Shown here piece after piece: positions 19,402 through 27,742 of a DNA stretch of 32,597 nt (its first letter is position 1; each line of letters begins with the position of its first letter). The notes beneath the pieces were generated by a model, which saw only the letters and a program-made list of their open reading frames with translations, did not search any database and was not told the origin of the DNA. A program made the position numbers and the translations under genes. This DNA comes from Haloparvum sedimenti (GTDB lineage Archaea; Halobacteriota; Halobacteria; Halobacteriales; Haloferacaceae), in the NCBI RefSeq assembly GCF_001462205.1, contig NZ_LKIR01000127.1:105551-138147 (forward strand), read 5' to 3'.

Positions 19402-19631
19402 CGTGGTGCCGGCTCAGAAGTTTCTGCCGGCACTCCCACATTCAGAAACAGTTCTGTTGCAGATCCTGCTGATCGGGACAGCAACACTTCGAAAGCCCCA
19501 GCCGGCTCGACCCGCCGGGCCTCGCTGCGCGCTCGCGCCTCTCAGCACCGCCCGGCGCGAGTGCTTGCGTCGTCCGGGCGGGATCGAGCCGACTGCCCCT
19601 TTCAGTCCCACCCATCGCTCCGCACAGCGCC
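19402..19631 (+). other. Hairpin-rich upstream half of element A
   Basis: Non-coding, between the helicase stop and the core of element A. It contains a perfect 8-bp stem gtgccggc/gccggcac (19406-19413 with 19426-19433). A larger imperfect hairpin follows, with an outer stem 19503-19516/19577-19591 of 14 pairs (one bulge) and an inner stem 19532-19539/19554-19561 of 8 pairs. Its loop is tctcagcaccgccc. The gcaccgc in that loop recurs in the core loops. Element B has only traces of this half (ggtgccggct, ttcagt). No convincing protein is encoded. Confidence 0.6.
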
Positions 19632-19800
19632 GCAACCGCACAGCAGCCTCGCACCTCCCCAGCCTCGGCGGCCGCGTGACCGCGAAACCGCACCGCAAGG
19701 CGGCCACGCGGCCGCCTCCCTCGCGCGGTCGCGGCGACACAAGGTCGCCGCGGCGCGCGCCGACAGCATCGCTCAGCACAGTACCAGCACCGCAACCGCT
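19632..19800 (+). repeat. Core of intergenic hairpin element, copy A
   Basis: Order of parts: gcacagca box; cctccccagcctcggc (19654-19669); hairpin I with 17 base positions and one A-C mismatch (19667-19683/19700-19716) closing the loop gaaaccgcaccgcaag; linker tccctcgcgcg; hairpin II (about 19722-19738/19744-19759) with loop acaag; then ccgacagcatc and a tail with cagcaccgcaaccgc. Copy B at 27578-27742 has the same order with different but still paired stems. A T-run follows at 19831-19835. It could be a non-coding RNA gene or a structured repeat. The strand is inferred from the T-run. Confidence 0.75.
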
Positions 19801-19830
19801 TTGGGACCCGCCCTAGCGCAGCGCGGCCGG

Positions 19831-19835
19831 TTTTT
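19831..19835 (+). terminator. T-run after element A
   Basis: Five T (ggtttttc) 31 nt after the element A tail and just before the convergent arfC stop. It could end a plus-strand transcript from the helicase or the element. Confidence 0.3.
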
Positions 19836-19870
19836 CAATCCTCAAAAGCGCCGGAGTGGCCTTCGCCGAC

Positions 19871-20539
19871 TCACTCCGCTCGAACGTCGTACGAGAGCAC
19901 CACGCCGTCGTCGAGTCGCTCCACGTCCGTCAGGTCCAGCCGCGGGAATTCCTCGGTGAACCCCTCGCCGTCCGCGAGCGTCGGCGCGTCGCGACCGCCG
20001 ACGATCATCGAGCCGACGTAGACGGAGAGCTCGTCCACCAGCCCCGCCTCGAACAGCGAGAAGATGACCTCGCCGCCGCCCTCCACCATCAGGCGGTCGA
20101 CGCCGCGGTCGGCGAGCTTATCGAGGCCGGCCGCGAGGTCCACGCGGTCCTCGCCGGCCGGGATCACCTCCGCGCCGGCGTCGGCCAGGTCCTCGCGGCG
20201 CGCAGGGGTGGTCGCCTCGCTCACGAGCAAGTAGGTCGTGGCGGCGCCGTCCAGGACTCTGGCGTCCGGTGGCGTTCGCCCCGAGGAGTCGACGACGACG
20301 CGGGCCGGGTGCGGCGGGCGGCCCGTCTCGCCACGCTCGGCGCGGAGGTCCGCGTCGTCCAGCGTCAGGTGCGGGTCGTCCGCGAGGACCGTCCCGACGC
20401 CGACCATGACGGCGTCCGAGCGCGCCCGGACGCGGTCGACGCGCGCGAAGTCCTCCTCGCCGGAGATGCGGAGCTGCTCGCGGCGGCGCGTGGCGAGCTT
20501 CCCGTCCACGCTTTCGGCGGCGTTGACCACGACGTGCAT
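19871..20539 (-). CDS. arfC: 2,5-diamino-6-ribosylamino-pyrimidinone 5'-phosphate reductase ArfC
   Basis: A 222-residue RibD C-terminal/dihydrofolate-reductase-like enzyme of the usual archaeal length. In archaea and fungi it reduces the ribosyl side chain of the pyrimidine intermediate with NAD(P)H, before deamination in riboflavin synthesis. Signatures are AESVDGKLAT around 8-17, DAVMVGVGTVLADDPHLTL at 42-60 and LMVEGGGEVIFSLFEAGLVDEL around 150-171. The open frame extends far upstream antisense to the RPA gene. The ATG at 20539 gives the canonical MHVVVNAAESVDGK start. It is divergent from the RPA operon, as I recall it also being close to rpa1 in Haloferax. Confidence 0.93.
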   Translation of the reverse strand: MHVVVNAAESVDGKLATRRREQLRISGEEDFARVDRVRARSDAVMVGVGTVLADDPHLTLDDADLRAERGETGRPPHPARVVVDSSGRTPPDARVLDGAATTYLLVSEATTPARREDLADAGAEVIPAGEDRVDLAAGLDKLADRGVDRLMVEGGGEVIFSLFEAGLVDELSVYVGSMIVGGRDAPTLADGEGFTEEFPRLDLTDVERLDDGVVLSYDVRAE

Positions 20540-20650
20540 GCCGCCCTCTGGTCCGGCCGCGGGGATGGTCGTTTCGGTGGGCGGCGGGGCGAGCGCGTCC
20601 GGGAACGCGCGGCGCGTCCGGCGCGTTCCACGTTCGCTCCGCCCAGCGAA

Positions 20651-20660
20651 CCCTTTTGTG
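20651..20660 (+). promoter_or_regulatory. TATA-like box of the RPA operon
   Basis: Reads cccttttgtg, centred about 28 nt before the rpa1 ATG at 20684. Confidence 0.55.
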
Positions 20661-20683
20661 CAAGTACGCCGAACCGTGGGCCG

Positions 20684-22066
20684 ATGGATGTCGACAACCA
20701 TGCCGAGGATCTCGCCTCCGATCTCGGCGTAGACAAAGAGGAGGTCAAAGCGGACCTGGAGAATCTGCTGGAGTACAGCGTGCCCATCGACGAGGCCAAA
20801 CAGAGCGTCCGCCGGAAGCACGGCGGGGGCTCGGGCGGCTCCTCGCCGACTCCCGACTCGGTCGACCTCGGGGAGATCACGACCGACCATGACAGCGTCA
20901 CCGTGACCGCTGTCGTGCTGACGGTCGGTACCCGAACGATCCGGTACCAGGGTGACGACATCACGATCCGCGAGGGCGAACTCGCGGACGAGACGGGGAC
21001 GATCTCCTACACCGCGTGGACCGACTTCGGTTTCGAGCCCGGAGACGCCGTCACGATCGGCAACGCCGGCGTCCGCGAGTGGGACGGGAAGCCCGAACTC
21101 AACCTCAACGACTCCTCGACGGTCGCGATGGCCGACGAGACGCCGGACGTGGACACCGAGGTCGGCGGCGACCGCTCGCTGGTCGAGCTCGAACCCGGGG
21201 ACCGCGGCCGGAACGTCGAGGTGCGCGTGCTGGAGGTGGAGTCGAAGACCATCTCCGGGCGCGACGGCGAGACCGACATCCGCGAGGGGATCGTCGGCGA
21301 CGAGACCGGTCGGCTCCCGTTCACGGACTGGGACCCTCGCGAGGAGGTCGCGGAGGGCTCCGACCTGCGGATCGAGGACGTGTACGTCCGCGAGTTCCGC
21401 GGCGTCCCGTCGATCAACCTCACCGAGTTCTCGCAGGTGACGCCGCTCTCGGATCCGGTGACCGTCAAGGAGGACGCGCCGCGACTCTCGGTCGCAGAGG
21501 CCGTCGACACCGGCGGGATGTTCGACGTGGAGGTCGTCGGTAACGTGCTCGAGGTCCGTGACGGCTCCGGGCTGATCGAGCGCTGTCCCGACTGCGGGCG
21601 CGTGATTCAGGGCGGACAGTGTCGGAGCCACGGCGCCGTCGAGGGCGAGGACGACCTGCGCGTGAAGGCCATCCTCGACGACGGCACGGACACGCTGACG
21701 GTCGTGCTCGACGACGATCTGACCGCCGAGGTGTACGGCGGCGGGCTGGACGACGCGCTCGCGGCCGCACAGGAGGCGATGGACAAGGACGTGGTCGCGG
21801 CGGACATCCGCGACGAACTCGTCGGGCGCGCGTTCCGCGTCCGCGGGAACCTCTCCGTGGACGACTACGGCGCGAACCTCGACGCCGAGACGTTCGAACC
21901 CGCGAGCGACGATCCGGCCGACGCGGCCGAGGCCGTCCTCGAAACGCTCGGGGGGTCCGGGGACGCCGGTGGGGAGGCGGCGACCGACGGCGGCGCCCCC
22001 GCCGACGCTGACGCCGACGCTGACACCGACCCCGACGCCGCCGCGGACGCGGAGGTGGACCGATGA
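20684..22066 (+). CDS. rpa1: Replication protein A, large OB-fold subunit (Rpa1 type)
   Basis: A 460-residue single-stranded DNA-binding protein with an N-terminal helical region (1-45) and at least three OB folds: about 60-150, 165-270 and 275-400. The strand pattern DETGTISYTAWTDFGFEPGD in the first recurs as DETGRLPFTDWDPREEVAEG in the second. A zinc site C301, C304, C313, H316 (CPDCG...QCRSHG) lies in the third. The C-terminus is an acidic Ala/Asp repeat tail, typical of SSB proteins. Gene order RPA-RPA-associated protein-phosphoesterase identifies the haloarchaeal rpa1 operon. The stop overlaps the next start (ATGA). Confidence 0.94.
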   Translation: MDVDNHAEDLASDLGVDKEEVKADLENLLEYSVPIDEAKQSVRRKHGGGSGGSSPTPDSVDLGEITTDHDSVTVTAVVLTVGTRTIRYQGDDITIREGELADETGTISYTAWTDFGFEPGDAVTIGNAGVREWDGKPELNLNDSSTVAMADETPDVDTEVGGDRSLVELEPGDRGRNVEVRVLEVESKTISGRDGETDIREGIVGDETGRLPFTDWDPREEVAEGSDLRIEDVYVREFRGVPSINLTEFSQVTPLSDPVTVKEDAPRLSVAEAVDTGGMFDVEVVGNVLEVRDGSGLIERCPDCGRVIQGGQCRSHGAVEGEDDLRVKAILDDGTDTLTVVLDDDLTAEVYGGGLDDALAAAQEAMDKDVVAADIRDELVGRAFRVRGNLSVDDYGANLDAETFEPASDDPADAAEAVLETLGGSGDAGGEAATDGGAPADADADADTDPDAAADAEVDR

Positions 22067-23649
22067 GCGACGACGACGGGCCGGGCGCCCGCGAGGTCGC
22101 CTACCGGCTCTTCGCCGCGGAGTTCGACGACGCCTCGCTCTCCTACTCCGAGAGCGACGAGGAGCGCGCGCCGAACTACGTCGTCACCCCGACCGGCGCG
22201 CGCGTCAACCGCCTGTTCGCGGCCGGCGTGCTCACCGAGGTCGAGCACATCAACGACGACACCCGCCGCGGGCGCGTGGTCGACCCGACCGGCGCGTTCG
22301 TCACCTACGCCGGCCAGTACCAGCCCGACGCGCAGACGTTCCTCGAGCGTGCCGACCCGCCGAGCTTCGTGGCGCTGACGGGGAAGGCCCGGACCTTCGA
22401 GCCGGAGGACTCGGACCGCGTGTTCACCTCCGTCCGGCCGGAGAGCATCAACCACGTCGACGCGGATGTCCGCGACCGGTGGATCGTCACCGCCGCGGAG
22501 ACGACGCTCGACCGCCTCGCGGTCCTCGAGAAGGCCCTCGCCGCGGACCTCCGCGGGGAGGACCTCCGCCGCGCGCTGGAGGCCGGCGGCGCGCCCGCGT
22601 CGCTCGCGGCCGGGATCCCGCGCGCCCTGGAGCACTACCGCACCTCGCCCGCCTACGTCGAGGCCGTGCGGCTGATGGCGGTCGATGCGCTGGAGCTGGT
22701 CGCCGGCGACCGCGACGAGGTCCGCGCGCCCGACGTGGCCCCGGATGAGGGCGGTCACGCGGAGATCGGTCCGCTCCCGGAAACGGACGTGAGCGTCGAG
22801 CCCGCGGCCGTGACCGGCGAGGCGGCTTCATCGGCGGCGGAGACCGAGACGGAACCCGAAGCGGACGTCGAGGCAACCGCCGAGTCGGACCCGACAGAGA
22901 CCGCGGAGACGGAACCGGAACCGACGGCGGAGGCCGAACCGGAGGCGGAGATTGAGTCGGAGGCTGAGGCAGAGGCAGAGACCGAACCGGAGACGACGAC
23001 TGAGACGGAGACGGAACCGGCGGAACCGGAGACGGCCGAACCCGCGACGGCGGGAGGCGCCGACGAGACCACGGCCGAGGAGCCGCTCGGTGACTTCGAC
23101 GAGTCGCTCGGGGACTCCGACGCCGACGCGAGCGCCGCCGGGAGTTCAGCCGACAGTGGGGTCGCAGACACGTCCGACGCCGCCGACACGGAGGCCGCAG
23201 GCGGCGAGATGTACGAACTCGACGACGAGGAACGTGAGGAGATCGAGTCGGAGTACGGGACCGAGTTCGAGACCGGCGGCGAGGTCGAGGAGGCGGGTAT
23301 CGACGTCCCCGACGCCGACGACCTCGCCGAAGAGCTCGAAGAACAGGACGCGGAGCCCGACGAGACGGCGACGGAGGCCGAGACGGACTCGGGTGCCGAC
23401 GCCGAGAGCGAAGCCGAGGCGGATGGCGAGGAAGCGGCGGAGGACGCGGAGGACGTCGACCTCACTGCCGCCGCCGTCGAGACGATGCGCGAGTTGGACG
23501 ACGGCGACGGTGCGGACCGCGAGGCTGTGGCCGCGGCGGTCGTCGACGAGTACGGCGCCGACCCCGAGGACGTCGACGACGCCATCGAGGACGCCCTGAT
23601 GGGCGGCCAGTGCTACGAGCCGACCGAGGGGACGCTGAAAGCGATCTGA
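22063..23649 (+). CDS. rpap1: RPA-associated protein (Rpap1 type, COG3390)
   Basis: A 528-residue partner of Rpa1; in Haloferax the two co-purify and are encoded together. Residues about 8-235 form the conserved OB-fold-containing COG3390 domain (REVAYRLFAAEFDDASLSY, VFVTYAGQYQPDAQTFLERA is its strand region in part). A very long acidic low-complexity linker of Glu/Thr/Ala/Pro runs from about 245 to 460. The last 65 residues form a winged-helix-like domain (TAAAVETMRELDDGDGADRE) resembling the RPA32 C-terminal protein-binding domain. The linker is longer than I would expect for the family. Overlaps rpa1 by four bases and the rpe start by a TGATG junction. Confidence 0.92.
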   Translation: MSDDDGPGAREVAYRLFAAEFDDASLSYSESDEERAPNYVVTPTGARVNRLFAAGVLTEVEHINDDTRRGRVVDPTGAFVTYAGQYQPDAQTFLERADPPSFVALTGKARTFEPEDSDRVFTSVRPESINHVDADVRDRWIVTAAETTLDRLAVLEKALAADLRGEDLRRALEAGGAPASLAAGIPRALEHYRTSPAYVEAVRLMAVDALELVAGDRDEVRAPDVAPDEGGHAEIGPLPETDVSVEPAAVTGEAASSAAETETEPEADVEATAESDPTETAETEPEPTAEAEPEAEIESEAEAEAETEPETTTETETEPAEPETAEPATAGGADETTAEEPLGDFDESLGDSDADASAAGSSADSGVADTSDAADTEAAGGEMYELDDEEREEIESEYGTEFETGGEVEEAGIDVPDADDLAEELEEQDAEPDETATEAETDSGADAESEAEADGEEAAEDAEDVDLTAAAVETMRELDDGDGADREAVAAAVVDEYGADPEDVDDAIEDALMGGQCYEPTEGTLKAI

Positions 23650-24416
23650 TGGCGGTCGTCGAGCCGGTGCCGGACGCGCCGGCCGCGGTCGCCGAACTCC
23701 CGGACGAGCGCGCGCTCGTCGTCGCCGACTACCACGCCGGCATCGAGGTCGGACTGCGCTACCAGCGCGGCGTCGAACTCGACAGCGCCGCACCCGAGCG
23801 CCGCGAGCGCCTGCTCGCGCTGCTGGACCGCACCAACGCCGACCGCGTCGTGGTGCTGGGGGACCTCGCGCACCGCATCGCCGCACCGGAGGGCGAGGAG
23901 CGCGAGGAGATCGCGGCGCTGATCGACGCGGTCACCGAGCGCGTCCCGCTGACGCTGGTCGTCGGGAATCACGACCCCGGCGTCGCGGAGGCGTTCGCGG
24001 CCGACCTCGACGTGATCCCGGCCGGCGGCGAACGCCGCGGCGACGTGGCGTTCGTCCACGGGCACACGTGGCCCGACCCGGCGGTGTTCGGCGCGGAGAC
24101 GGTCTGCATGGGCCACGAACACCCGCAGGTCAGACTGGAGGACGCGGTCGGCGGGAGCCGGACCGAGCGCGCGTGGCTCCGCGGTGCGCTCCGGCGGGAA
24201 CCCTTCGAGGCCGAAGCCGAATCGGGCGAGGCAGTCGCGGCGGTCTGGAACGACCCGGAGCTCGTCGTCTTCCCGGCGTTCAACGAGCGGTCCGGCGGGA
24301 CGTGGATCAACGTCGACGGTCAGCAGTTCCTGGCCCCGTTTCTGCCCGAGGGACTGGTCGACGGGCAGGCGTACCTGCTCGACGGGACGCGACTCGGCGC
24401 GTATCGGTCGGTCTGA
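23649..24416 (+). CDS. rpe: Calcineurin-like phosphoesterase of the rpa1 operon (Rpe)
   Basis: A 255-residue metallophosphoesterase. All family metal motifs are visible: Asp27 and His29 (VVADYHAG), GDLAH at 71-75, GNHD at 106-109, HGH at 137-139 and GHEH at 155-158. It is the third gene of the RPA operon and starts within the stop codon of rpap1 (TGATG), which rules out the earlier in-frame ATG. Homologues are annotated as ICC-like or DNA-repair-associated phosphoesterases. A nuclease or phosphatase role alongside RPA is inferred from operon conservation and has not been demonstrated here. Confidence 0.92.
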   Translation: MAVVEPVPDAPAAVAELPDERALVVADYHAGIEVGLRYQRGVELDSAAPERRERLLALLDRTNADRVVVLGDLAHRIAAPEGEEREEIAALIDAVTERVPLTLVVGNHDPGVAEAFAADLDVIPAGGERRGDVAFVHGHTWPDPAVFGAETVCMGHEHPQVRLEDAVGGSRTERAWLRGALRREPFEAEAESGEAVAAVWNDPELVVFPAFNERSGGTWINVDGQQFLAPFLPEGLVDGQAYLLDGTRLGAYRSV

Positions 24417-24456
24417 GCGTGTGCCAGTGCGCCAGCGACCGCCCCCGCGGCGACGC

Positions 24457-24464
24457 GCTTAATC
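24457..24464 (+). promoter_or_regulatory. TATA-like box of lhr
   Basis: Reads gcttaatc, centred 28 nt before the lhr ATG at 24489. Confidence 0.6.
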
Positions 24465-24488
24465 GCCTGAGGACCGAACCTCGGAGCG

Positions 24489-27400
24489 ATGCCAGAGGGG
24501 AGCGCCGGCGGGGCCGCTGACGGGCAGCAGGCCGCCGAGACGGAGGCCGAAGCTCGCTCGGAGACCGCCGGTGCGGAGGACGGACTGGACGCGTTCACGC
24601 ACCTCGGGCCGACGGTCCGGGAGGCGCTCTCGGAGCGCGGCTTCGCGACGCCCACGGAGCCGCAGCGCCGGGCGATCCCCCCGATAGCGGCGGGTCGGAA
24701 CGCGCTCGTGCTGGCGCCGACCGGGACCGGAAAGACCGAGACGGCGATGCTGCCGGTGTTCGACGCGCTCGTGAGGGCTCGCGAGACGCCCACGGGCGCG
24801 CCGCGGGAGGGGATCTCCGCGCTGTACATCACTCCGCTCCGCGCGCTCAATCGTGACATGATGGACCGGCTGGAGTGGTGGGGCGACTACCTCGACCTCG
24901 AGGTGGCGGTCAGACACGGCGACACGACGCAGTACGAGCGGTCGAAGCAGGCCGACGACCCGCCGGACGTGCTGATCACCACGCCCGAGAGCCTGCAGGC
25001 GATCCTCACCGGATCGAAGATGCGGCAGGCGCTCGCGGACGTGGCGCATCTCGTCGTCGACGAGGTCCACGAACTCGCCTCCGCGAAGCGGGGGGCACAG
25101 CTGACCGTCGGCATGGAGCGCCTCCGCGAGGTCGCGGGCCCCTACCAGCGGATCGGCCTCTCCGCGACGGTGGGGTCGCCCGAGGAAGTCGGGCGATTTC
25201 TGGTTGGCTGCGGGAAGCGGGACCCCTCGCGTGAGGGCGACCGCCAGTTCGAGATCGTGGAGGTCGCGGCCGGCACGCGCGTCGACTTCTCGGTGGTCGA
25301 ACCCGAGATCACCGACGCCGACGACCGGCTCGCGGGCGAGTTGGCGACGACCGAGGAGATCGCCAGCCACGTCCGCGCGATCAGGGAGATCGTCGCGGCC
25401 CACGAGTCGACGCTGATCTTCGTCAACACGCGACAGACCGCGGAGGCGCTCGGCTCGCGGTTCAAGACGCTCGCGGAGGGGGGAAGCGGCAGGTCCGGCG
25501 TCGGTGACGACGGCGAACCCGTCGACATCGGCATCCACCACGGCTCGCTCTCCACCGAGGCGCGCGTCGACGTGGAGGACCGCTTCAAGAGCGGCGACCT
25601 CGACGGACTGGTCTGTACCTCCTCGATGGAACTCGGGATCGACGTGGGACGCGTCGACCACGTCGTCCAGTACGGGAGCCCGCGCGAGGTCGCCCGGCTG
25701 CTCCAGCGGGTCGGACGTGCGGGCCACCGCCGCGACCTCGTCTCGGAGGGGACCGTGGTCGCGAGCGGCGACGACGACGTGCTGGAGTCGCTGGCCATCG
25801 CCCGGCGCGCTGAGGAGGGTCTGGTGGAGCCGGCCAGCATCCACCACGGGAGCCTCGACACGGTCGCGAACCAGGTCGTCGGCGTCGTGATGGACTTCAG
25901 CGAGGTCCACGCGCGGAAGGCCTACGAGGTCGTGACGAACGCCTACCCCTTCCGGGACCTCTCTGAGCCGGCGTTCCAGGAGGTCGTCCGGGAGCTGTCG
26001 AGCAATCGCCTGCTGTGGCTCGACGAGGAGACGGACACCTTGGAGAAGTCCGGCGGGACGTGGCAGTACTTCTACGCCAACCTCTCGATGATCCCCGACG
26101 AGTCGACCTACGACGTTCACGACCTCTCCTCGCGGTCGCGGATCGGGACGCTCGACGAACGGTTCGTCCTCAACTTCGCCGGCCCGGGCGAGACGTTCGT
26201 CCAGCGCGGCGAGATGTGGCGGATCAACGACATCGACGAGGAGGAGGAGCGCGTCAACGTCTCGCCGGTGGAGGACCCCGCCGGCGAGGTGCCCTCGTGG
26301 ACCGGCTCGGAGATCCCCGTCCCGAAGCCCGTCGCGGCCGAGGTCGGCCGGCTACGAGGGGAGGTCGCGGAGCGCCTCGCGGACGGGACCCCCCGGTCGG
26401 CGGTCGCGCGCGGGTTGACCGAGCGCTACCCGACGGACGCAGGGACGGCGGCGGCCGCGCTGGAGTCCGTCGAGGACCACGCCGCCGCGGGCCACCCCGT
26501 GCCGACGGACGAGCGCATCGTCGTCGAGTCGCTCGGGCGCTCGCTCGTGGTCAACGCCGCGTTCGGCCACGAGGTGAACGAGACGCTCGCGCGCTTGCTG
26601 TCGGCGCTGATCGGTCAGCGCACCGGCTCCTCCGTGGGGATGGACGTGGACCCCTATCGGATCGAGCTGGAGGTCCCGCCGGACGTGGGTCCCGGCGTCG
26701 TCATGGAGGTGCTGGAGGAGACGGAGCCGGCGCACCTGGAGTCGTACCTCGAACTCGCGGTGAAGAAGTCGGACGCGCTGAAGTTCACGCTCGCGCAGGT
26801 GGCCGCGAAGTTCGGCGCGCTCAAGCGCTACCGCGAGGGGCAGGGTCGATTCGGCGGCGACCGCCTACTCGCGGCGCTGGAGGACACCCCCGTCTACGAG
26901 GAGGCGGTCCGCGAGACGTTCCACACGGACCTCGCGGTCGACGCGACCGCAGCGGTTCTGGAGGCGGTCCAGTCCGGGGACATCGACCTCGTGGCCGCCC
27001 GCGAGCGGACGCCGCTCGGCTCGGCGGGCACCTCCTCCGGCCGCGAGTTCCTCGTGCCGGAGAACGCGGACGCCAGCGTCATCGAGGCCGTTCGCGAGCG
27101 CATCCGCGAGGACCGCGTGATCCTCTTCTGTCTCCACTGTCGGGACTGGACGCGGAAGACGAAGGTGCGCCGCGTCCGCGACCAGCCGGAGTGCCCGGAG
27201 TGCGGGTCGACCCGCATCGCGGCGCTCAACCCGTGGGACGAGGAGGCGGTGAAGGCGGTCAGGGCCGAGGAGAAGGACGAGGACCAGGAGAAGCTCACGA
27301 AGCGCGCGTTCCGCTCCGCGAGTCTGGTGCAGACCCACGGCAAGCGTGCGGTGATCGCGCTCGCGGCCCGCGGCGTCGGTCCGGAAAACGCCGCCCGAAT

Positions 27401-27494
27401 TATCAACAACCTCCGCGAGGACGAGGAGGAGTTCTACCGCGACATCCTCGGCCGCGAGCGGGAGTACGCGCGGACGCAGGCCTTCTGGGACTGA
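24489..27494 (+). CDS. lhr: Large helicase-related protein Lhr
   Basis: A 1001-residue superfamily 2 helicase. An acidic N-terminal tail (1-32) precedes the Q-motif-like FATPTEPQRRAIPPI. Walker A is APTGTGKT at 76-83, the DEVH box is at 191-194, and motif III is LSATVG. The second RecA domain has LIFVNTRQTAEAL, then VCTSSMELGIDVGRVDHVV and LLQRVGRAGHRRD (motif VI). The C-terminal Lhr winged-helix and beta-barrel region carries a four-cysteine zinc site, C881/C884 (CLHC) and C902/C905 (CPEC). Lhr enzymes unwind DNA and DNA:RNA forks in repair. It has its own TATA-like box, so it is probably independent of the RPA operon 72 nt upstream. Confidence 0.95.
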   Translation: MPEGSAGGAADGQQAAETEAEARSETAGAEDGLDAFTHLGPTVREALSERGFATPTEPQRRAIPPIAAGRNALVLAPTGTGKTETAMLPVFDALVRARETPTGAPREGISALYITPLRALNRDMMDRLEWWGDYLDLEVAVRHGDTTQYERSKQADDPPDVLITTPESLQAILTGSKMRQALADVAHLVVDEVHELASAKRGAQLTVGMERLREVAGPYQRIGLSATVGSPEEVGRFLVGCGKRDPSREGDRQFEIVEVAAGTRVDFSVVEPEITDADDRLAGELATTEEIASHVRAIREIVAAHESTLIFVNTRQTAEALGSRFKTLAEGGSGRSGVGDDGEPVDIGIHHGSLSTEARVDVEDRFKSGDLDGLVCTSSMELGIDVGRVDHVVQYGSPREVARLLQRVGRAGHRRDLVSEGTVVASGDDDVLESLAIARRAEEGLVEPASIHHGSLDTVANQVVGVVMDFSEVHARKAYEVVTNAYPFRDLSEPAFQEVVRELSSNRLLWLDEETDTLEKSGGTWQYFYANLSMIPDESTYDVHDLSSRSRIGTLDERFVLNFAGPGETFVQRGEMWRINDIDEEEERVNVSPVEDPAGEVPSWTGSEIPVPKPVAAEVGRLRGEVAERLADGTPRSAVARGLTERYPTDAGTAAAALESVEDHAAAGHPVPTDERIVVESLGRSLVVNAAFGHEVNETLARLLSALIGQRTGSSVGMDVDPYRIELEVPPDVGPGVVMEVLEETEPAHLESYLELAVKKSDALKFTLAQVAAKFGALKRYREGQGRFGGDRLLAALEDTPVYEEAVRETFHTDLAVDATAAVLEAVQSGDIDLVAARERTPLGSAGTSSGREFLVPENADASVIEAVRERIREDRVILFCLHCRDWTRKTKVRRVRDQPECPECGSTRIAALNPWDEEAVKAVRAEEKDEDQEKLTKRAFRSASLVQTHGKRAVIALAARGVGPENAARIINNLREDEEEFYRDILGREREYARTQAFWD

Positions 27495-27501
27495 GGAGGC
27501 G

Positions 27502-27515
27502 ATTGCGGCGGCAAT
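27502..27515 (+). terminator. Small hairpin just after lhr
   Basis: Perfect 5-bp stem attgc/gcaat with loop ggcg, beginning 8 nt after the lhr stop. No T-run follows directly, so a role in termination or 3' end stability is a guess. Confidence 0.25.
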
Positions 27516-27577
27516 TCGTCCGGATCGGGGTGCCGGCTACCCCGTTCAGTGCGGCGCCGCAGTGCCGACCCGCTCGG

Positions 27578-27742
27578 CGACCGCACAGCACTGCATGCCT
27601 CATCCCTCCCCAGCCTCGGCCGCGAGCCGGGCGCGGAACCGCACCGCATCGCGCCCGGGCGCGGCCTCCCTCGCGCGCGAGAAACGCGCGCGCCGACCGC
27701 ATCAGTACCGCACTACTGCACCGATACCGCCACAGCACCGCT
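27578..27742 (+). repeat. Core of intergenic hairpin element, copy B
   Basis: Parts in the same order as copy A: ccgcacagca; cctccccagcctcggc (27605-27620, identical to A); hairpin I with inner stem ccgggcgcg/cgcgcccgg (27627-27635/27650-27658) and outer stem ggccgc/gcggcc (27618-27623/27661-27666) around the loop gaaccgcaccgcat; linker tccctcgcgcg; hairpin II cgcgcgcg/cgcgcgcg (27672-27679/27685-27692) with loop agaaa; then ccgaccgcatc and a tail with cacagcaccgc. It fills most of the 342-nt gap between lhr and the stress-protein gene, where no protein is evident. Confidence 0.75.

Follow-up and report, generated by a model that had tools for sequence, protein, structure and literature searches.

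Two elements of Haloparvum sedimenti belong to a large haloarchaeal family of structured intergenic repeats whose hairpins appear to be exchanged whole

Paired changes in the two arms of a stem are commonly taken as proof of selection on an RNA. Within a 32,597-nucleotide stretch of the Haloparvum sedimenti genome (contig NZ_LKIR01000127.1, positions 105,551 to 138,147; hereafter the window), two elements, A and B, share loops and linkers while their stems are unlike in sequence and yet paired, which an earlier note on this DNA had read as selection on RNA structure, in either a non-coding RNA or a structured repeat. Does such pairing require an RNA, or can it be kept at the level of DNA? The family to which A and B belong offers a natural test of that problem.

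Both copies were confirmed at their positions in the window, and both are intergenic. Copy A lies between a + strand gene, presumably for a Rad3/XPD-like helicase, and a - strand gene that we take to encode a RibD-like reductase; copy B is flanked by what is presumably an Lhr-like helicase gene (+) and by the + gene that follows it, all three names being read from translations. The sequences reported as common to both, namely CCTCCCCAGCCTCGGC, the loop GAA(A)CCGCACCGCA, the linker TCCCTCGCGCG and the downstream CCGAC, were all recovered. The placement of A at 19632–19800 was right, but its true extent is larger, with conserved sequence from approximately 19454; likewise, the unlike stems do pair in both copies, but the exact pair counts did not hold, as folding gives slightly different helices.

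On the + strand, A starts with CTGTTGC-AGATCCTGCTGATCGGGA-CAGCAACACTTC (19454–19490), which is the half of the ~75-bp tandem unit lying before GAAAG; several such units are present in other copies. The 5' arm of a long-range outer stem follows, GAAAGCCCCAGCCGGCTCGA (19491–19510), whose 3' arm is TCGAGCCGACTGCCCCTTTC (19584–19603); the homologous Halorubrum stem covaries. A degenerate array of CCGCA/CAGCA pentamers ending in GCCTCGCA (19613–19653) leads to a conserved anchor, CCTCCCCAGCCTC (19654–19666), and to hairpin I (19667–19716, loop GAAACCGCACCGCA), which rests on folding and covariation and has 12+4 pairs flanking one mismatch. The conserved linker CTCCCTCGCGCG (19716–19727) is followed by a hairpin II of the long type, folded with a 1-nt bulge and a 5-nt loop (19722–19761), and by a 3' tail of degenerate CAGCA/CCGCA (19762–19790).

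Copy B, also on the + strand, is without the 5' module, that is, without both the ~75-bp unit, of which A has one, and the outer stem; only a short remnant of the 5' array is present (27578–27604). The same anchor, CCTCCCCAGCCTC (27605–27617), precedes a hairpin I of a stem class unlike that of A (27618–27666, loop GAACCGCACCGCA), in which folding places 7+10 pairs around a small internal loop rather than the 9+6 proposed earlier. After the linker CTCCCTCGCGCG (27666–27677) comes a hairpin II of the short type (27672–27694), with 8 bp and a 5-nt loop, AGAAA, which on the opposite strand reads as TTTCT, the commonest loop; the 3' tail consists of CCGACCGCATCAGTACCGC and an array (27693–27742). 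A further copy of the family, at G000:C32:105454-105538, ends ~13 bases before window position 1, and its tail may reach into the start of the window.

Further copies proved to be numerous. A covariance model built from 25 copies detected at least 103 dispersed copies (E<=0.001) in the 3.24-Mb H. sedimenti genome, and DNA searches of this genome returned 40 scored loci of 335 candidates with A, and ~40 loci, a largely different set, with B. The pattern of anchor, gap and linker was present in all 53 genomes of the Halorubrum group, with 6 to ~120 exact matches each, and the reversed pattern gave no match in the same 53 genomes. Among named genomes, matches were nearly confined to Halorubrum species, with the addition of Halobellus captivus and one archaeal MAG; class-wide, 56 of 392 genomes and 5 of 86 genera carry the pattern. 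The family is rare on plasmids (five plasmid records per query, all marked non-mobilizable), one copy, on pHAR01 of Halorubrum salinarum, being unannotated and situated between convergent genes. Thus, A and B are members of a large haloarchaeal family of structured intergenic repeats.

The full copy in H. sedimenti begins with 1–5 tandem units of ~75 bp each (GAAAGCCCCAGCCGGCTC...GATCCTGCTG...CAGCAACACCCA), followed by the long-range outer stem, GAAAG-CCCC-AGCCGGCTCGA / TCGAGCCGGCT-GCCC-CTTTC, which encloses a variable branch. After it come AGTCCCACCC and the array of CCGCA/CAGCA pentamers, which recur in the loop of hairpin I, then the anchor, hairpin I, the linker joining it to a hairpin II of long or short type, and finally CCGAC with another array. 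The core measures 90–118 bp and its hairpin foot is CCTCG...CTCCC. Upstream of the first unit conservation fades at ~45 nt, and downstream of hairpin II at ~25 nt, so that the ends are not sharp; whole elements range from ~110 to 450 bp.

Several variations on this plan were observed. Upstream of some copies in H. sedimenti (loci L015, L024 and L035, for example), one to five tandem repeats with a period of 75–84 bp carry the outer stem's 5' arm, providing several alternative partners for a single 3' arm; the Halorubrum version of this repeat is ~55 bp long and has a TATA-like core. The loops of hairpin I in Halorubrum are often exactly self-complementary AT-rich palindromes (GCTTATAAGC; e.g. 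L105, L110, L172 and L199), so that some hairpins have no true loop and form a perfect palindrome. At G148:C1:29946-30009, hairpin I has a homopolymer stem in which C16 pairs with G12 and flanks, reflecting either extreme freedom of stem sequence or an assembly error. A second, related type of element has the anchor followed by A, a stem GCCCGCGGCC, a loop TCCGCGTTGCTCC and a linker TTCCCTCGCGCG; it stands inverted close to several copies of the family, and a shared stretch, ACTCCCGCCGTGAGTGCA, lies between the two (L011:1362-1427, L021:1347-1412 and L038:1339-1418 on the - strand; L013:758-823 on the + strand). Lastly, a short twin-hairpin insert of the GCGTGCAGTAGCGCGC type is nested in the linker, loop or outer branch of some copies (L037:1096-1150, L278 around 2123, L083:7785-7800, L024:947-962), and occupies the identical place in L037 and L278 beside different classes of hairpin I.

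The pairing of the stems was examined in several ways. In an alignment of 66 distinct copies, which was made to the covariance model and hence leans towards it, 20 of 26 pairs had changed on both sides, a level reached by none of 500 shuffles; 94.7% of the cells pair, and this falls to 29–55% when partners are slid by 1–3 columns. The 25-copy set gave 92.4% paired cells versus 81.6% after shuffling, with changes on both sides in 13 of 18 pairs of hairpin I. Without any alignment, eight or more outer pairs can be formed in 55 of 61 H. sedimenti inter-anchor segments, versus 0.7% of shuffles, and in 68 of 94 distinct Halorubrum segments (less than 1% of shuffles). For the Halorubrum outer stem, 87% of the cells pair versus 67% when arms are re-dealt among copies. 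All three stems (outer, I and II) are therefore kept complementary and covary; the structural part of the earlier proposal, conserved single-stranded parts with varying but paired stems, was correct by both covariation and shuffle controls, and its reading as a structured repeat is supported by the dispersed copies and the pairing kept in them.

The mismatches have a direction. On the described strand, C.A off-pairs exceed G.T (22:4 in H. sedimenti, 10:5 in Halorubrum and 18:6 in the outer stem), in counts that are not phylogenetically independent and are inflated by changes inherited within sub-families. An excess of C.A is the opposite of the trace that selection would leave if it acted on an RNA of the described strand, and argues against such selection. 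Because inherited changes inflate these counts, the wobble asymmetry was not used to prove which strand is transcribed.

In five Halorubrum genomes, an element lies just upstream of valS, a site where it is absent from most of the genomes inspected; these carriers have the outer stem, the array, hairpin II and the 3' flank in common, and display four different hairpin I sequences. The empty sites are too diverged for their junctions to be aligned. Over 11 groups of orthologous sites, hairpin I identity was 0.67 between orthologs versus 0.64 between random pairs (p=0.18; 15 pairs, with limited power), whereas identity of the 3' flank was 0.73 versus 0.59 (p=0.0001). Hairpin I is clearly different in 9 of the 11 groups, the exceptions being L118/L154, which are 97% alike, and L166/L185, which are identical. 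In H. sedimenti, each of the two main hairpin I classes is found with both types of hairpin II, as in free recombination. In-place inversion of a loop, where an identical stem carries the reverse-complemented loop within one genome, is also seen, and the AGAAA loop of hairpin II in B is inverted in this manner relative to the usual TTTCT.

Whole hairpins thus appear, from these comparisons, to have been exchanged at orthologous sites, and such data are better accounted for by conversion between copies or template switching than by point changes made pair after pair. With hairpins apparently swapped whole, some loops inverted and off-pairs leaning to C.A, the co-variation of the stems, which had been offered as a sign of RNA selection, is insufficient for that conclusion by itself; whole hairpins that are apparently swapped or flipped would yield perfect covariation without any RNA. 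Renewal of the hairpin at the DNA level explains the exchange, the inverted loops and the off-pairs as well as or better than RNA selection does.

We consider it somewhat probable that A and B are long, multi-hairpin extragenic repeats of the REP/BIME-like kind, in which recombination among copies renews the hairpins as DNA, and we infer that the palindromes are maintained as DNA. On DNA that is single-stranded or supercoiled, the palindromes would be extruded as hairpins; guided by the fixed anchors, template switching or conversion among ~100 copies could then replace or invert a whole hairpin, so that both arms would change together. Copies may have arisen by mobilisation in trans or by duplication, and would persist where promoters are undisturbed, in places where one transcription unit may be set off from the next by a copy. 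Counting against this explanation, the analysis revealed neither target-site duplications nor terminal repeats nor an enzyme that would mobilise the copies, and just one of nine TnpB loci and one of four TnpA loci have a copy; the hints of a transcription-related role given below also count against it.

The placement of the copies speaks for this explanation and also bears on a second one. Gene calls and strands were taken not from annotation but from a codon model trained on the H. sedimenti genome with dynamic programming. In H. sedimenti, 27 of 61 copies are situated between convergent genes, versus 29 of 159 other gaps (p=1e-4), and in Halorubrum 44 of 89 copies versus 19 of 198 (p=4e-13); divergent gaps are depleted of copies in Halorubrum (p=4e-5), and no copy lies clearly inside a called ORF in the H. 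sedimenti genome or the Halorubrum loci. Such figures, with half of the copies in convergent gaps, speak for a cis-acting 3'-end or boundary element, a hairpin block that stabilises mRNA ends or separates convergent units and in which sequence is free and pairing required. This reading is consistent with the 3' ends of Halorubrum copies, typically 5–60 nt from the stop of the convergent gene, and with a weak bias in co-directional gaps, where the described strand matches that of the genes in 39 cases against 19 (p=0.012). However, the T-rich tracts to which transcription termination in archaea is usually attributed are absent from the copies; approximately one quarter of the copies lie downstream of a gene start on their 5' side, and the fixed anchors are left unexplained. 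We regard it as an unlikely account of the whole family.

A structured non-coding RNA gene family, each copy being transcribed and folded, and acting in trans or together with a protein that recognises the single-stranded anchors, would be in line with the strong covariation, the conserved unpaired stretches and a TATA-like motif that 58 of 96 Halorubrum copies have ~35–40 nt ahead of the outer stem, from which an RNA of the described strand could start. This motif is not kept in the H. sedimenti copies, though, and a second TATA-like motif, 10–20 nt after hairpin II in Halorubrum copies, would start an RNA of the opposite strand within hairpin II. Approximately 100 copies with freely swapped stems and flipped loops would also be unusual for RNA genes, and the excess of C.A, within the limits of its non-independent events, points the other way; we hold this reading to be rather unlikely. 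The second motif is unlikely to be the promoter of the next gene, because many of the next genes are convergent. TATA-like motifs at fixed distances, together with the same-strand bias, hint at a role related to transcription, and a transcribed RNA or a boundary role at 3' ends is possible.

It is quite improbable that the copies are PATEs or MITEs moved by an IS200/IS605-type enzyme and devoid of a host role: copy number, lack of coding capacity, subterminal palindromes, presence or absence among species at the valS site, tandem copies at L010 and the abundance of PATEs and SMRs in Haloquadratum (PMC3119063) speak for it, but there is neither a terminal repeat nor a sharp end, the IS605-type genes of H. 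sedimenti do not have these hairpins as ends, the viral contigs and phage records searched with the family pattern gave no match, plasmid copies are few and the convergent bias is strong. Improbable too, in our estimate, is a dedicated and still active process by which a single hairpin, at a fixed and anchored position within each copy, is swapped or flipped, a programmed exchange of a hypervariable self-complementary cassette as opposed to slow compensatory mutation or passive gene conversion.

Comparison with known systems agrees with the earlier statement that no named family is known to have this layout. A search of Rfam covariance models at the gathering score returned no match in the window, and only two tRNAs in 12 related loci; no description of the family was found in the open-access papers searched. 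The family is genus-wide, with structured elements in ~100 copies in a well-sampled archaeal genus, and has neither an Rfam entry nor a match in the literature searched.

The PATEs and SMRs of Haloquadratum are numerous, non-coding and palindromic, and may have a smaller palindromic element nested inside (PMC3119063). Our family resembles them in being haloarchaeal, non-coding and numerous, and in having palindromes with smaller palindromic inserts: the GCGTGCAGTAGCGCGC twin-hairpin insert, a separate, shorter element distinct from the family described here, is found within certain copies, in a hairpin or a linker, much like HqIRS SMR-A type insertions in PATE palindromes (PMC3119063). PATEs are too short to encode a transposase and have near-terminal palindromes; the family is non-coding with palindromes, but its termini are not sharp, its ends are not common to the IS605-type genes of H. 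sedimenti, and its convergent placement is strong. At the four TnpA (PF01797) and nine TnpB loci of this genome, no IS605-type or REP transposase with these hairpins as ends was found: one PF01797 match has a single copy nearby, beyond tnpB, eight TnpB loci are without any copy, and the ninth has one copy after the transposon end. The copies are not PATEs derived from an IS605-type element of this genome. A PATE of the virus HRTV-DL1 is reported to be expressed in Halorubrum lacusprofundi (PMC10544981); the phage search indicates no relation to it, provided that the HRTV-DL1 record is in the collection.

REP/BIME systems with RAYT consist of GTAG- and CGTC-tagged repeats with units of 20–40 bp (PMC3733652, PMC2817692), and bacterial REPs are placed between convergent or co-directional genes and form sub-families with paired stems (PMC3733652, PMC1525189). 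In contrast to these 20–40 bp units, the family measures ~110 to 450 bp, with three stems and fixed anchors; it is archaeal, whole hairpins differ at orthologous sites, no GTAG or CGTC foot was observed (the foot being CCTCG...CTCCC), and none of the four PF01797 matches in the H. sedimenti genome is a rayt (Y1_Tnp) gene flanked by two inverted copies. By foot, size and rayt, it is not a REP in the strict sense. It shares with REP/BIME the high copy number, the intergenic position, palindromic stem sub-families with alternative complementary residues, and the convergent or co-directional placement. Copy number, palindromes and placement make the family REP/BIME-like; at convergent gene ends, where its positional signal is strong, it offers an archaeal equivalent of the REP elements.
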